Source: an uncultured Lachnospiraceae bacterium (GTDB taxonomy: Bacteria; Bacillota; Clostridia; Lachnospirales; Lachnospiraceae). Taken from it: a stretch of 60,491 bases of DNA. This document shows positions 4,001-8,157 of the stretch, in pieces. Under the pieces are notes generated by a model. That model worked only from the letters and a program-made list of their open reading frames with translations. It was not told the DNA's origin and did no database searches. The DNA is taken from assembly GCA_902779395.1 (NCBI GenBank), contig CACZBK010000018.1, positions 1 to 60,491 on the forward strand, in the 5' to 3' direction. Each line of letters begins with the position of its first letter. Position 1 is the stretch's first letter. Both the position numbers and the translations under genes were made by a program.

Positions 4001-4744
4001 AAGGATAAGACCAGATCGATAGATATTACTGTTATCCAGCCTAATTTCAGTGAGAAGACCATAAAGGCCGATGTATCAAATGGACCAAAGCACTGCGGAT
4101 TTAAGGATTTCGATGACCTTCCTGTAGCATATTACGTTTCAAATCCCGAGGTATGCGCCATCAATCTCAGAACCGGAGAATTATATTTCTTCGGAAAAGG
4201 TACATCAACAATTACGGCATATGTTAACGGTAAGGCATATAGCTGCAGGCTTAAGGTAACTGAAGACACTGTTCTTACGAAACATGAAGTTTACATGAAT
4301 GTAAAAAGTAAAAAGAGTCTTAAGCTCAGCGGTGTTAAGTTTGAGAAATTTGAGATTGCTGAGGCTTATGCCGATTTTGCTGAGATAAAAAAGAATACAG
4401 TCATCGCAAAAGACAAAACCGGTTTAGTACAGGTAACGGGAACATCTAAGGATGGTAAGATGTATTTGTTCAATGTATATATCGAAAGGCCTGCTATAAT
4501 AGATCCTTCTACCTTTGGTTATACCGAAAAGGGCAAGGGCAAGTATGAGATAAATATGAAAGTCGGACAGGAAGCCCAGCTTTACTTTGAGACCGACAGA
4601 TATATCATAGTAAAGGCAAGCAAACCGGAGACAGCATATGCATCGGAAGACGGACTTATCTGTGCAATGAAGCCCGGAAGCAGCAAGCTTACTGCAAAGA
4701 TCAACGGAAAGAGCGTGACCATCAAAGTAAACGTTACAGAGTAA
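1019..4744 (+). CDS. Large secreted repeat protein with InlB-type repeat and Ig-like C-terminus
   Basis: This 1241-residue protein has an N-terminal signal peptide (Lys-rich start, hydrophobic stretch, cleavage near residue 33). A very acidic Asp/Glu/Ser/Thr linker to about residue 95 follows. Three modules then begin with the pattern LW-G--VT--N--DI-G, then A-YDP-T--LTLN, near residues 100, 398 and 643; the sequence after each looks like short beta-helix strands. Around residues 856-922 is a Listeria-Bacteroides InlB-type repeat (VKFDTNGHG ... ITIYAYWEE). The last about 300 residues look Ig/Big_2-like and end in KINGKSVTIKVNVTE. No LPXTG motif or C-terminal membrane anchor is present, so attachment is unexplained. 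A GAGGAGG ribosome site sits 8 bases before the ATG. The function is unknown; surface adhesion or carbohydrate contact is a guess from the domains. Confidence 0.8.
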   Translation: MKSKKAINRLLTLLLVLVMSVTGFAQSGIHVLAAGEEAAVTDEDAVSDDAVTSDDSAIEEDVSDNEADTQDITTESEDTDEPSEDVIVPEEEDETVSYKLWVGGVQVTDNNKDDIKETSRPDLYGLKGDEAKATFNPVTNTLYLYNVVGFIGGIGIQDEGKETYEYAYIYYAGADTFNIVAEDCDIDIPETLYSNKDYWFIYSAADLNLSGNITVSTVGSSKKIGRGIETKGSLTFKADSEFQCESIYCPIQSGKAVTVESGAYVNTDLVNNTDNSFYGVDQNALCVKSGGLTVNGGTLYLYSHKGNYNSNALDVKGNLTLNAGSDFMAVNESKSTPDVSKYGSLKVSGDIIVDKSLYIYDKEHVKKDSDFRYVVNEKDEPSINVQIQVDETDGLNIWIGGQQVTEGRAYDIWGLDVGSATYDKDTKVLTLNNAGGFKGYYQKAWINCAEAITIKGNFSLSMLDGSEAGYLINSSNDLTLDCDIDMSGMKAFPDRAISTVDKGKLIVKGGTYKLRAKNHALYSYTDVELNSGDIDAYASSFQTIYAYNGNISFNGAKVDATSVVSGKSAVYALNGNISFNNGSAELKAYTGTAAVAAANGSVTLDTNYLCIASPEGAKIQGGKIVDADDKDVSEVEIKAVEGYGLWLGNTAVTNNNTSDIFGDGKASYDPETGVLTLNGVKDFGELYKSGDSTYCIASTGTNELTIKGSAELSGASVGISGLNLNIDADLTINCDTGILSGLGGVKINGGKVVINSAKDGINAEVLGGIEVNGGELIVKAGADDSYALKATTIRLNGGKITAEGKAGSMLANSKITLSDKMLILEPKGGKLSTSGKSVVDAEGNTAKKVVLLEKTVQCTVKFDTNGHGTAPADVTLWSGECVERPADPAEDGWIFVDWYKDKECTQPYDFNTPVTSDITIYAYWEELRLVSAMNPVPFIGESTDNLLLVKGQKFTADVLVGWSVDKADKKYVTISKKGKLSAKKVTKAPVKIWNKDKTRSIDITVIQPNFSEKTIKADVSNGPKHCGFKDFDDLPVAYYVSNPEVCAINLRTGELYFFGKGTSTITAYVNGKAYSCRLKVTEDTVLTKHEVYMNVKSKKSLKLSGVKFEKFEIAEAYADFAEIKKNTVIAKDKTGLVQVTGTSKDGKMYLFNVYIERPAIIDPSTFGYTEKGKGKYEINMKVGQEAQLYFETDRYIIVKASKPETAYASEDGLICAMKPGSSKLTAKINGKSVTIKVNVTE

Positions 4745-4768
4745 ACCCGGTCAGTGTTTCCGGTATTT

Positions 4769-4795
4769 AAGGCGGATCTTCGGATCCGCCTTTTT
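4769..4795 (+). terminator. Rho-independent terminator after the secreted protein gene
   Basis: GGCGGATC pairs with GATCCGCC around a TTCG tetraloop, extended by AA/TT, with a T-run after it. It separates the secreted protein gene from the reverse transcriptase locus. Confidence 0.92.
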
Positions 4796-4822
4796 GATGC
4801 GTTCCCGGAAGCATGAATATTG

Positions 4823-4851
4823 TTGACTAATACCTGTCAATAAATTAGAAT
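4823..4851 (+). promoter_or_regulatory. Promoter with operator-like inverted repeat, RT locus
   Basis: TTGACT (4823-4828) and TAGAAT (4846-4851) are separated by exactly 17 bases, a good sigma-A promoter. An inverted repeat TTGAC-N8-GTCAA (4823-4840) covers the -35 hexamer and could be an operator. Transcription from here would cover the 160-residue protein, the structured segment and the reverse transcriptase. Confidence 0.7.
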
Positions 4852-4894
4852 TATCTGTGAACTGTTGTTATGATAATTTCAAAGGAGAAAAGCT

Positions 4895-5377
4895 ATGGGA
4901 TTATTTGACAGTATTGTAAAATTGGCTAAAAGTGTTTCCGACAGTGTGGCAGATGCCACCTCGGAAGTTACTTCCAATACTCAGAGTTATCAGGAGGAAA
5001 CCAGACGCCTTGATATGCAGGCCGAAGCCGACGGGCGTCCTTTTGATGAGAAGTTTAAGGAGATAATCGCGTCTATGCCCGGATGTTCGGTTGACTATGA
5101 AGTATCTCCCGATTTCCTGGAGCTTCAGGCAGGCCGCCAGATATATGCACGCGGCGGAAACCGCTGCCCGGCTGATAATTTCACCTATGTTTTAACATAC
5201 AACGGAAAACAGGTATATATCCGTTTGTGGAAAGCATATAGTAAGTATGATCATGCCGCAAACAGGGCGGTGGGCGTACATTGTATGCAGATGGGTATGA
5301 AAGTACTTGACTTCTTTGATTACATGCCAAACGGTGTCAATTACATGAGAGACCGTATAATGCAGGCGTTCGCATAA
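4895..5377 (+). CDS. Unrecognised 160-residue protein upstream of the reverse transcriptase
   Basis: No family is recognised. The first about 50 residues are polar and probably helical (SIVKLAKSVSDSVADATSEV, then a Glu/Gln/Arg-rich stretch). The C-terminal part, about residues 85-160, shows a beta-hairpin-like FTYVLTYNGKQVYIRLW and then a Cys/Met helix and a YMPN--NYMRDRI ending. That arrangement faintly resembles small PD-(D/E)xK-like clostridial proteins, but no catalytic set can be assigned. There is no signal peptide or membrane segment. An AAAGGAG ribosome site precedes the ATG. It lies on the same strand as the RT gene, 172 bases before it, and the space between is filled by the stem-closed structured segment. 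It may be the protein partner of the RT; this is inference from position. Confidence 0.75.
   Translation: MGLFDSIVKLAKSVSDSVADATSEVTSNTQSYQEETRRLDMQAEADGRPFDEKFKEIIASMPGCSVDYEVSPDFLELQAGRQIYARGGNRCPADNFTYVLTYNGKQVYIRLWKAYSKYDHAANRAVGVHCMQMGMKVLDFFDYMPNGVNYMRDRIMQAFA
5334..5361 (+). promoter_or_regulatory. Possible internal promoter for the structured RNA
   Basis: A perfect TATAAT (5356-5361) lies inside the last codons of the preceding gene, with GTGTCA (5334-5339) 16 bases upstream as a 4-of-6 match to the -35. A start near 5368 would fall about 20 bases before the 16-bp stem at 5389, so the RNA could be made separately from the upstream gene. Confidence 0.45.
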
Positions 5378-5388
5378 TAATATTTGTT

Positions 5389-5533
5389 AAAAGGGAAAGA
5401 GAAATGTGATATATCACGCCTGCGGCGGATGCAGCGCGGTGCTTTCAGGGCCTTGCAGGCGGCTGCGCCGGCGTACCATCCTGTAGAAATAAGCATGCTT
5501 AATTTCTTTCAAAGCGTTTTCTCTTTCCTTTTT
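5389..5533 (+). ncRNA. Candidate structured RNA bounded by a 16-bp stem, next to RT
   Basis: Bases 5389-5404 (A-rich, GGGAAAGAG core) pair with 5518-5533 (TCTTTCC core) over 16 pairs with a single G-U. This closes a loop of 113 bases. Inside are a perfect 12-base palindrome GTGATATATCAC (5406-5417), a GC-rich block in which GCCTGC (5418-5423) can pair with GCAGGC (5455-5460), and a hairpin GAAAT-AAGCATGCTT-A-ATTTC (5486-5506). The right arm ends 16 bases before the RT start codon and runs into a T-tract. The arrangement recalls the a1/a2-bounded msr-msd of retrons and the upstream RNAs of DRT2/DRT9-type systems. The RT itself lacks retron motifs. The RNA is predicted from sequence only. Confidence 0.5.
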
Positions 5534-5549
5534 TATTGTCTGAATTCTT

Positions 5550-6758
5550 ATGGATATTATCGATGAATTATCACAAAAAGATAAATGGTATGAATTCTTA
5601 AACTACAGGCTGTCGGTCCGTAAATTTTCTGCAGCGGAAACAGAGGCCTGGGAGGAATATATTGAAAACGAAATATATCTGCCGGCAGTGAAAGAAATGA
5701 TGAACGGCAGTTTTATCCCGCCGATCCCGGTTAAAATGGAGATAAATAAAACCGGCAGCAGTAAAAAACGTGTGGTTTTTTCTTACCCTTCCGATTTTAA
5801 CCGTATCCTAAAATTCATTTCTTATGCTTTATATCGTTATGATGATATCTTTTCCGCTAACTGCTTTGCCTTCCGTCCGAATATCAGCGCAAAAGACGCC
5901 ATTCCCCTGATCAGCAGGGAATTAAACAGAGGAGGCATTTATTCACTTAAAGCGGATATAAGTGATTATTTTAATTCCATCGACAGTAAAAAACTGCTGC
6001 ATCGCCTGGATTTTCTGAAAAAAGAAGATATGCGCCTTTTCAGGGTATTTGAGGCTATGCTCACTGCCGGAAAAGCGTCGGATGCAAAAGGAGAGGTGAG
6101 CATGATGAAGTGCGGGGCTATGGCGGGGATACCCGTAGCACCTTTTTTTGCAAATGTTTACCTGATCGATACAGACCGGTATTTTGAGGATGCAGACCTT
6201 TTATATATGCGATATTCCGATGACATACTGATATGTGCCGGCAGCGAAGAAAAACTTGGGCAGGCAAAAGAGACCCTGTTTGAACGTCTTATGGATGACG
6301 GCCTGAAGATAAACAAAGAAAAACTTAATACATATGCACCCGGTGAGAGTGTGGAATACCTGGGATTTTCCGTATCGGAAAGCTGTATCGATCTGGCGGA
6401 GATAACGAAGACCAAGCTGAAGAACAAGATAAAGCGCAAGGCACATGCCCTCCGCAGATGGTGCATGAGTAAGAAACTTCCGCCGGAGCGCGGGGCGAAG
6501 GGCTTCATAAAAGCCATGAACCGTAAACTATATATCAGGTCCGAAGATGACCTTTTCTCCTGGAGCAGATGGTTTTTCCCAAACATCACTACGGATAAGA
6601 GCCTAAGGGAGCTGGATGCCTATATGCAGCAATATGTGCGCTGGTGTGTGAGCGGCAGGCATTATAAAGGGAATTTCAGGATCAACTATGAAGATATGAA
6701 GGAATGGGGCTATAAAAGCCTGGTCCATGAGTATTATAATGACAGCGGTATGGGCTGA
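5550..6758 (+). CDS. Stand-alone reverse transcriptase (class not assigned)
   Basis: This is a 402-residue RNA-directed DNA polymerase. Visible RT motifs are, in order: an N-terminal KKRVVFSYP-DFNRIL and FAFRPN segment (about 72-112), motif A KADISDYF with Asp136, motif B GIPVAPFFANVYL (193-205), motif C YSDD with Asp224 and Asp225, and motif D/E KINKEKL ... VEYLGF. All three catalytic aspartates are present. The C-terminal 130 residues form a basic, Trp/Tyr-rich extension ending GYKSLVHEYY. There is no HNH endonuclease, no retron NAxxH or VTG motif, and no SQ in motif B as DGR enzymes have. No integrase or group II intron RNA was seen nearby. The ATG follows the structured segment closely and has no good Shine-Dalgarno. 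A role in phage defence with the upstream RNA, like the DRT systems, is plausible inference. Confidence 0.9.
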   Translation: MDIIDELSQKDKWYEFLNYRLSVRKFSAAETEAWEEYIENEIYLPAVKEMMNGSFIPPIPVKMEINKTGSSKKRVVFSYPSDFNRILKFISYALYRYDDIFSANCFAFRPNISAKDAIPLISRELNRGGIYSLKADISDYFNSIDSKKLLHRLDFLKKEDMRLFRVFEAMLTAGKASDAKGEVSMMKCGAMAGIPVAPFFANVYLIDTDRYFEDADLLYMRYSDDILICAGSEEKLGQAKETLFERLMDDGLKINKEKLNTYAPGESVEYLGFSVSESCIDLAEITKTKLKNKIKRKAHALRRWCMSKKLPPERGAKGFIKAMNRKLYIRSEDDLFSWSRWFFPNITTDKSLRELDAYMQQYVRWCVSGRHYKGNFRINYEDMKEWGYKSLVHEYYNDSGMG

Positions 6759-6794
6759 TACAGTCTCATGTCGCAGATATTTGCTAATATTTCT

Positions 6795-6823
6795 TTGCAG
6801 TTAATTTATTACTGTGATATACT
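6795..6823 (+). promoter_or_regulatory. Promoter of the paaK operon
   Basis: TTGCAG (6795-6800) and TATACT (6818-6823) are spaced by 17 bases. Transcription would begin near 6830. That lies beyond the ATG codons at 6814 and 6826 and supports the TTG start at 6856. Confidence 0.75.
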
Positions 6824-6855
6824 TTATGGATATTAAATATTTGGAGGTAAGACCA

Positions 6856-8157
6856 TTGGAGCGTTATTTTCAGGAAGAGATCGAATGTGCTTCAGAGGAG
6901 ACTTTACGTGACATACAGAGCAGAAAACTTGTGGAGCAGGTAAAGCATGTCTGGGATAATGTGCCTTACTACAGAAAGAAAATGGAAGAAAAGGGAGTAA
7001 CACCGGATGATATAAGATCCGTTGATGATCTGCATAAGCTGCCTTTTATTTCCAAGTATGATCTGAGAGATTCTTATCCCTACGGAATGCTGGGCGTGCC
7101 CCTGAAGGATGTGGTGCGTATCCATTCTACCAGCGGTACCACAGGCAAGCGTGTGGTCGCTTATTATACGCAGGGCGATATTGATCTGTGGGAAGACTGC
7201 TGCGCAAGAGCCATAGTGGCAGCCGGCGGCAGTGATGAAGATGTCTGCCAGGTATCTTACGGTTACGGTCTGTTCACCGGCGGTATGGGACTGCACGGCG
7301 GTGCCCATAAAGTAGGCTGTATGACCATTCCGGCGTCTTCAGGAAATACAGACCGTCAGATCATGTTCATCCGTGATCTGAATGCTACAATTATCTGCTG
7401 CACTCCTTCATATGCGGCATATCTGGGAGAGAGCATGAAGGAGATGGGACTCACTCCCAATGATATCCCCTTAAAGGCAGGTATCTTCGGAGCAGAGGCA
7501 TGGAGTGAGGAAATGCGCCGCGAGATCCAGAATACTCTGGGTATCAAGGCTTATGATATCTACGGACTTACAGAGCTTTCCGGCCCCGGCGTGGCGTTCG
7601 AATGCAGCGCACAGACCGGCATGCATATCAATGAAGATCATTTTATCGCAGAGATAATCGATCCCGATACAGAGGAAGTTCTTCCTGAGGGAAGCCAGGG
7701 CGAACTGGTATTCACTGCTATCGACAAGAAAGCTTTCCCGGTGATCCGTTACCGTACCCGTGATATCTGCACGCTCAGACGTGAGAAGTGCAGCTGCGGA
7801 CGTACGCTTATCAAGATGGAAAAACCGAAGGGACGTACGGACGATATGCTCATCATCAGGGGAGTGAATGTGTTCCCGAGCCAGATCGAGACTGTACTTT
7901 TAGAGCATGGCTATCAGGCTAATTACCAGATAATTGTCGGTCGCGAAAACAACACCGATACTCTGGATGTGCATGTGGAGATGACACCGGAGATGTTCAC
8001 CGACGATATCACGGAGATCAACAAGCGTCAGGGTGATCTGGTCAAGGGCCTGCTGAGCATGCTGGGTATCAAGGCAAAGGTTACGCTTGTCGCACCCAAG
8101 AGTATCACCAGAAGTGAAGGAAAGGCAGTCAGGGTAATAGATAACAGAAAGATCTGA
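6856..8157 (+). CDS. paaK: Phenylacetate-CoA ligase (PaaK family)
   Basis: This is an AMP-forming acyl-CoA ligase of 433 residues, expected to convert an aryl acid such as phenylacetate to its CoA thioester in the cytoplasm. It shows the P-loop STSGTTGKRV, the adenylate-binding YGLTELSGPG, RTRDI, and the C-terminal RTDDMLIIRGVNVFPSQIE hinge. The cysteine pair CSCGRT is typical of the PaaK family. The start is taken as TTG at 6856: GGAGGT lies 7 bases upstream, the predicted transcript begins near 6830, and family members start with (M)ERYFQ. An ACT-domain gene follows by 35 bases, a pairing common in anaerobes that handle aryl acids from aromatic amino acids. Confidence 0.9.
   Translation: MERYFQEEIECASEETLRDIQSRKLVEQVKHVWDNVPYYRKKMEEKGVTPDDIRSVDDLHKLPFISKYDLRDSYPYGMLGVPLKDVVRIHSTSGTTGKRVVAYYTQGDIDLWEDCCARAIVAAGGSDEDVCQVSYGYGLFTGGMGLHGGAHKVGCMTIPASSGNTDRQIMFIRDLNATIICCTPSYAAYLGESMKEMGLTPNDIPLKAGIFGAEAWSEEMRREIQNTLGIKAYDIYGLTELSGPGVAFECSAQTGMHINEDHFIAEIIDPDTEEVLPEGSQGELVFTAIDKKAFPVIRYRTRDICTLRREKCSCGRTLIKMEKPKGRTDDMLIIRGVNVFPSQIETVLLEHGYQANYQIIVGRENNTDTLDVHVEMTPEMFTDDITEINKRQGDLVKGLLSMLGIKAKVTLVAPKSITRSEGKAVRVIDNRKI

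Follow-up and report, generated by a model that had tools for sequence, protein, structure and literature searches.

A conserved, cis-encoded non-coding RNA (ncRNA) is given, in the available part of PMC13174585, as a mark of the RNA-templated class 2 defence-associated reverse transcriptase (DRT) systems studied so far. DRT2 has a pseudoknotted RNA beside a stand-alone reverse transcriptase (RT) (PMC12039810, in excerpt), and in DRT10 (UG17) an ncRNA with a central stem carries a template loop after a stable stem-loop, next to a partner gene and an RT with a C-terminal priming residue (PMC12632851, in excerpt). A locus resembling DRT10 in its stem-bearing ncRNA and partner gene, with a candidate template loop and candidate priming residues, was found in a 60,491-nucleotide contig from an uncultured Lachnospiraceae bacterium (GenBank assembly GCA_902779395.1, contig CACZBK010000018.1; the whole contig is referred to as the window). 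It consists of three parts in tandem on the + strand: a 160-aa partner gene, a structured spacer carrying the RT-5 RNA, and a 402-aa RT of the PADLOC group RT_UG26, a candidate DRT group that PADLOC lists by name and whose model contains neither RNA nor mechanism (Table 1). With a probability of about 55%, we interpret the unit as a UG26-group RT system of the defence type, hitherto uncharacterised, in which RNA-templated, protein-primed synthesis of repeats would be joined to a partner acting as sensor or effector.

A preliminary description of this DNA had proposed a new RT system of unrecognised parts. The row of three elements on one strand was borne out, with both open reading frames (ORFs) open on the + strand and the stem between them; novelty of the parts was not, as RT_UG26, RT-5 and RTasCOG2852 are already catalogued families. 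These three names probably go back to Mestre et al. 2022 and Weinberg et al. 2017, and the three may have been linked by others before. Derived in the present analysis are the three parts as a unit, the pseudoknot, the loop types that follow the RT tree, and the reading of the partner fold. UG26 is mentioned neither in the DRT9, DRT10, DRT3 and myRT papers (main texts) nor in a DRT3 review, no functional study of UG26, including defence tests, was found in the literature searched, and searches on RT-5 RNA, on COG2852 with reverse transcriptase and on DRT11-DRT14 returned nothing relevant.

The RT matched RT_UG26 (PDLC03764) with 486.9 bits over residues 1-398, and the runner-up profiles were generic RT (117.3 bits), UG27 (99.7), UG17 (95.4), Cas1_IIIb (93.4) and Drt9 (88.7). 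Comparison with RT class profiles, proposed at the outset as a check, therefore placed it in a candidate-defence group and in no known non-defence group. A retron identity was rejected, in agreement with the initial observation that no retron signature is present: retron_St85_RT, the sole retron model among the matches listed, reached 56.6 bits where its cut-off is 235. A group II intron RT/maturase identity was likewise rejected (NCBIfam TIGR04416, 113.2 against a cut-off of 300), although fold similarity was highest to group II RTs despite this sub-cut-off score. Alignment of 63 sequences, including that of the window, showed no variation at D136, Y222, D224 or D225 and very little at S223, confirming the YSDD motif and catalytic aspartates noted earlier. 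Tyrosine was present at position 395 or 396 in 59/63 aligned RTs, and Tyr395-Tyr396 in the C-terminal tail of the window RT are candidate priming residues.

The spacer matched Rfam RT-5 (RF03026) at 5414-5521 with 67.4 bits, relative to a gathering score of 45.7, over the full model (1-104). The match is confined to 5414-5521; the outer stem, pseudoknot and template-like loop were derived here from 66-71 sequences. Folding of 5378-5549 gave -54.9 kcal/mol (z -2.42), and 5/200 shuffles were equally good, so that the fold is moderately unusual by energy alone; the structure is beyond chance because it is conserved, as seen in the Rfam match and covariation, and not because of its energy. In the 66-sequence alignment the RNA is built from an outer stem, a first small hairpin (SL1), a two-part long inner stem, and a mini-hairpin. 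The 8-nt loop of this mini-hairpin pairs with the strand that precedes the inner stem, which creates a pseudoknot. The outer stem has 16 pairs in the window, as originally described. Across the whole structure 97.1% of cells were paired and 25/29 pairs had changes on both sides; for the pseudoknot the values were 98.7% and 6/8. In total, 367 cells with both-side changes were observed, relative to 106.6 in shuffles and 58-94 with the partners slid; the structure was chosen on the same alignment, which favours it, though hardly to the degree seen. The RT-5 RNA thus holds a strongly covarying pseudoknot. A promoter for the RNA was sought just 5′ of it: TATAAT allowing up to one mismatch was found at 38/67 loci (57/268 control windows) and exact TATAAT at 11/67 (4/268 controls), the window not being among the exact ones.

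Distribution of the RNA and RT was surveyed across the family to which the window belongs (299 genomes, 298 genera), counting RTs at E <= 1e-40. The RT was found in 33/299 genomes and RT-5 in 31/299 (30 over the cut-off), all 31 of them within the 33; in the two RT-bearing genomes where RT-5 was not found (G193 and G293) the RTs are 30-31% identical and probably belong to another group. RT-5 was also found in 22/392 genomes of an order sample, two further families included, and in 2/398 of a phylum sample, namely the window's own genome and another of the same family. The UG26 profile matched 17/291 genomes of a class sample at 1e-40, 13 of them with E < 1e-130; eleven of these 13 RTs lie outside the window's order-level relatives, and nhmmer found the same RNA upstream at 12 of the 13 loci (not at L101). 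Overall, nhmmer found the RNA in 104/113 locus upstreams, a set in which some loci appear more than once, giving 71 distinct RNAs, 44 of which had been used to build the profile. The partner gene was present at 51/70 RNA loci. No shared substitute partner was found at the 19 loci that lacked a partner match, where cross-matches were nearly all antisense ORFs over the RT, with a few single ABC-transporter-like or same-strand RT-internal ones. The expected co-occurrence of stem and partner with RT homologues was thus seen, and an ncRNA that is cis-encoded beside the RT and structurally conserved (31/33 RT genomes, covariation), as in RNA-templated DRTs, is present. When the loop types (UUC or other) were placed on the RT tree (68 rows, midpoint root), 2 changes were needed, compared with 23 after shuffling, and only L028 lay across the main split. 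The loop types thus track the principal division of the tree: RNA and RT have descended together. Partner, RT-5 RNA and RT form one inherited unit; this unit, the RNA fold and the partner family are well supported.

Several relatives depart from this arrangement. At L099 the RT-5 RNA lies ~1.2 kb upstream of the RT, not directly before it. At L018:5001-6230 the RT frame ends after 179 aa and the next ORF probably carries the remainder; RNA and partner match are present. A second RT in the window's genome (contig C27:12555-13238, L002) is 27% identical, and no RT-5 was found adjoining it. In G193, a 1271-aa ORF (L093:156-3971) ends in an RT ~31% identical to that of the window and has a long N-terminal part with cysteine-rich stretches that by eye resemble radical-SAM proteins; fusion of an RT to a protein of this kind, if so, would be unusual. 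The RT at L111 (at ~995, RT orientation) is 32% identical (284 bits to RT_UG26) and has a different structured-looking leader upstream in which nhmmer did not find RT-5; it may represent a sister group that uses another RNA.

The loop between the last hairpin and the 3′ strand of the outer stem begins with UUCAA or UUUAA in 64/70 RNAs, and lies where DRT9, DRT10 and DRT3a hold their templates. RNA-templated, protein-primed DNA synthesis by the unit is likely. The RNA would be transcribed as a separate molecule that ends in the U-tract of the outer stem and would be bound by the RT. With the UUYAA loop as template, the RT would prime the DNA from a tyrosine in its C-terminal tail. Copying of the loop, slipping back by microhomology and repetition would then give a long tandem-repeat cDNA, with a repeat unit in the window of perhaps 11 nt (ACGCTTTGAAA; CGCTTTGAA is an alternative candidate). 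The homology between A and A′ that such slippage would use is mostly 2-4 nt and weakly covarying; it supports a repeat template weakly, which counts against the proposal. In DRT10 the template loops are poorly conserved (PMC12632851, in excerpt), in contrast to the loop here. A universal poly-U template of the DRT9 (UG28) type was rejected, as the longest U run within 16 nt of the loop start is 2-3 nt in 49/70 RNAs.

The partner comprises an N-terminal segment beginning MGLF and a C-terminal domain at approximately residues 46-160. The 160-aa protein had been called unrecognised, and the window's own protein indeed had no match in Pfam, NCBIfam or PADLOC, nor did the family match consistently in Pfam, PHROGs or PDB sequence searches; the family is nevertheless partly covered by PADLOC RTasCOG2852 (PDLC03793), which matched 27/49 partner proteins at 0.1 (best 2.4e-68). 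The window protein and the partners of the UUC-loop loci L009, L010, L023 and L005 had no RTasCOG2852 match and were linked to the family via profile comparison. The fold of the C-terminal domain is probably PD-(D/E)XK-like, the acids not being conserved, as opposed to the SLATT partner of DRT10. Residue 110, assigned by eye to the expected acid position, is Glu in 19/49 and Arg in 11/49, including the window, so that the conserved catalytic acids of a Vsr-like or COG2852 nuclease were not found at this position. Amphipathicity of the N-terminus fell in the best tenth of shuffles in 23/46 partners, which is suggestive only. The partner, with its dead-nuclease-like domain and amphipathic-looking N-terminus, would most likely be the sensor or effector of the repeat DNA or of its loss, and its reaction during phage infection would halt the cell. 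At L038, L040 and L087 the partner domain lies inside longer proteins (371, 293 and 478 aa), not in the short MG-type form. A DRT10 SLATT gene was sought and rejected at the window, where the gene 5′ of the RNA matches no Pfam family and the RT is followed by an AMP-binding gene.

Conservation of the loop can be read in another way. The RNA could be a scaffold or activator only, its UUYAA loop binding protein, with DNA made untemplated or on another template as in class 1 Abi/DRT-like enzymes; we consider this unlikely. Loop conservation, when set against the poorly conserved template loops in the excerpt of PMC12632851, could mean binding, and the weak A/A′ covariation fits as well, whereas the UG models next in rank to UG26 are UG27, UG17/DRT10 and DRT9, and a conserved cis-encoded ncRNA goes with RNA templating in the class 2 systems studied so far (PMC13174585). 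Copying of a longer part of the RNA, rolling round the outer stem to give a never-ending gene as in DRT2, would suit a pseudoknotted RNA next to a stand-alone RT (PMC12039810, in excerpt); it is made highly improbable by concatemers of the central RNA region, which were stop-free in only 14/70 RNAs with lengths spread evenly mod 3 (25, 25, 20; rough boundaries). An endless reading frame was accordingly rejected, in which the unit differs from DRT2, as it does in its extra partner gene. We regard as equally remote a retron-like system, with the outer stem in the role of the a1/a2 stem and a discrete msDNA copied from part of the RNA: the closing stem and the position just upstream of the RT would suit it, but the retron model fell far below its cut-off and the UG26 model was far ahead.

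A role outside defence, as a domesticated RT-RNA unit with a housekeeping function in Clostridia-type bacteria, was weighed against the surroundings of the unit. Around 14 loci, 117 ORFs of at least 90 aa were collected and 94 were scanned, partners and some short or antisense ORFs being dropped. Among the best 25 of 39 PADLOC families at 1e-10, mad3 matched 6 and PDC-S07 2 of the 94 proteins, one type IV restriction model matched 2 and another 1, and the rest were single; one protein was RT_UG26, most likely the split RT of L018. Among the best 25 of 80 Pfam families, ABC transporters, tRNA synthetases and metabolism led. No defence-island context was therefore found at the 14 loci, as few of the 94 proteins match defence models. 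The unit was found in no viral contigs and in no plasmids at 1e-20, and a phage search returned 9 records of 24-27% identity. UG26 is among the RT classes in 22 deep-sea viruses in the available part of PMC10504277, which states no function there; such viral UG26-class RTs were not reproduced by our searches of viral contigs and phages. These results, with the housekeeping-like neighbours in the window, favour a domesticated role, which we nonetheless judge improbable: the patchy distribution (33/299 family genomes) and varied neighbours point to an accessory trait, and the relatives tested in published work are defence systems. The unit would most likely be an anti-virus system.

Three sparsely described database entries (RT group, RNA motif and partner family) are joined here into a single system that can be tested: its borders are defined, its pseudoknot is backed by covariation, and candidates for the template and for the priming residues are named. 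Should the loop prove to be the template, repeat synthesis of the DRT10 type and its telomerase link would extend to a second RT group, whose product is conserved and whose partner protein differs. A more far-reaching proposal, which we hold to be doubtful, is that UG26 would add a second telomerase-like RT to those of bacteria, its template being fixed and not free, nearly all its repeats having a TTRAA core and its priming using the C-terminal tyrosine, with the DNA being read by a dead nuclease-fold partner that attacks the membrane via its amphipathic N-terminus; such a partner would be a new kind of DRT effector.

Table 1 Features of the UG26 unit in the window
Feature	Position	Strand	Basis or remark
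Promoter-like site 5′ of partner gene	4823-4851	+	TTGACT-17-TAGAAT, 10/12 consensus matches
Partner gene, 160 aa	4895-5377	+	Open frame; MGLF segment N-terminal + C-terminal domain
RT-5 RNA, outer stem to U-tract	5389-5533	+	Putative ends
Outer stem, 5′ strand	5389-5404	+	Folding, alignment; pairs with 5518-5533
SL1, first small hairpin	5406-5417	+	Alignment, covariation
Pseudoknot strand GCCUGCGG	5418-5425	+	Pairs with 5453-5460
Long inner stem, 5′ strands	5427-5442	+	5427-5430 and 5434-5442
Mini-hairpin GCC(UUGCAGGC)GGC	5450-5463	+	8-nt loop is 3′ strand of pseudoknot
Long inner stem, 3′ strands	5465-5481	+	5465-5474 (one extra base in window) and 5478-5481
SL3, last hairpin before loop	5485-5507	+	Alignment, sequence
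Conserved loop UUCAAAGCGU, proposed template region	5508-5517	+	UUYAA at loop start
Outer stem, 3′ strand + U-tract	5518-5533	+	Perhaps also terminator of RNA
Reverse transcriptase, 402 aa, RT_UG26	5550-6758	+	Open frame; YSDD at residues 222-225; Tyr395-Tyr396

The unit is flanked 5′ by a long gene ending at 4744 and 3′ by an AMP-binding, phenylacetate-CoA-ligase-like gene starting at 6814. The upstream terminator is legible at 4771-4795 (GGCGGATC-TTCG-GATCCGCC-TTTTT) but was missing from the output of the terminator/promoter scan of the region, and the promoter-like site before the partner gene is present but not significant alone, as 5 such sites occur in 4700-6900 relative to 4.5 expected from shuffles. 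Large ORFs just 5′ of the unit at L004, L008, L010 and L011 are, as judged from position and size, apparently class I (valyl-type) tRNA synthetases, which make up 4/94 of the surveyed neighbour proteins, and this suggests a recurring site.
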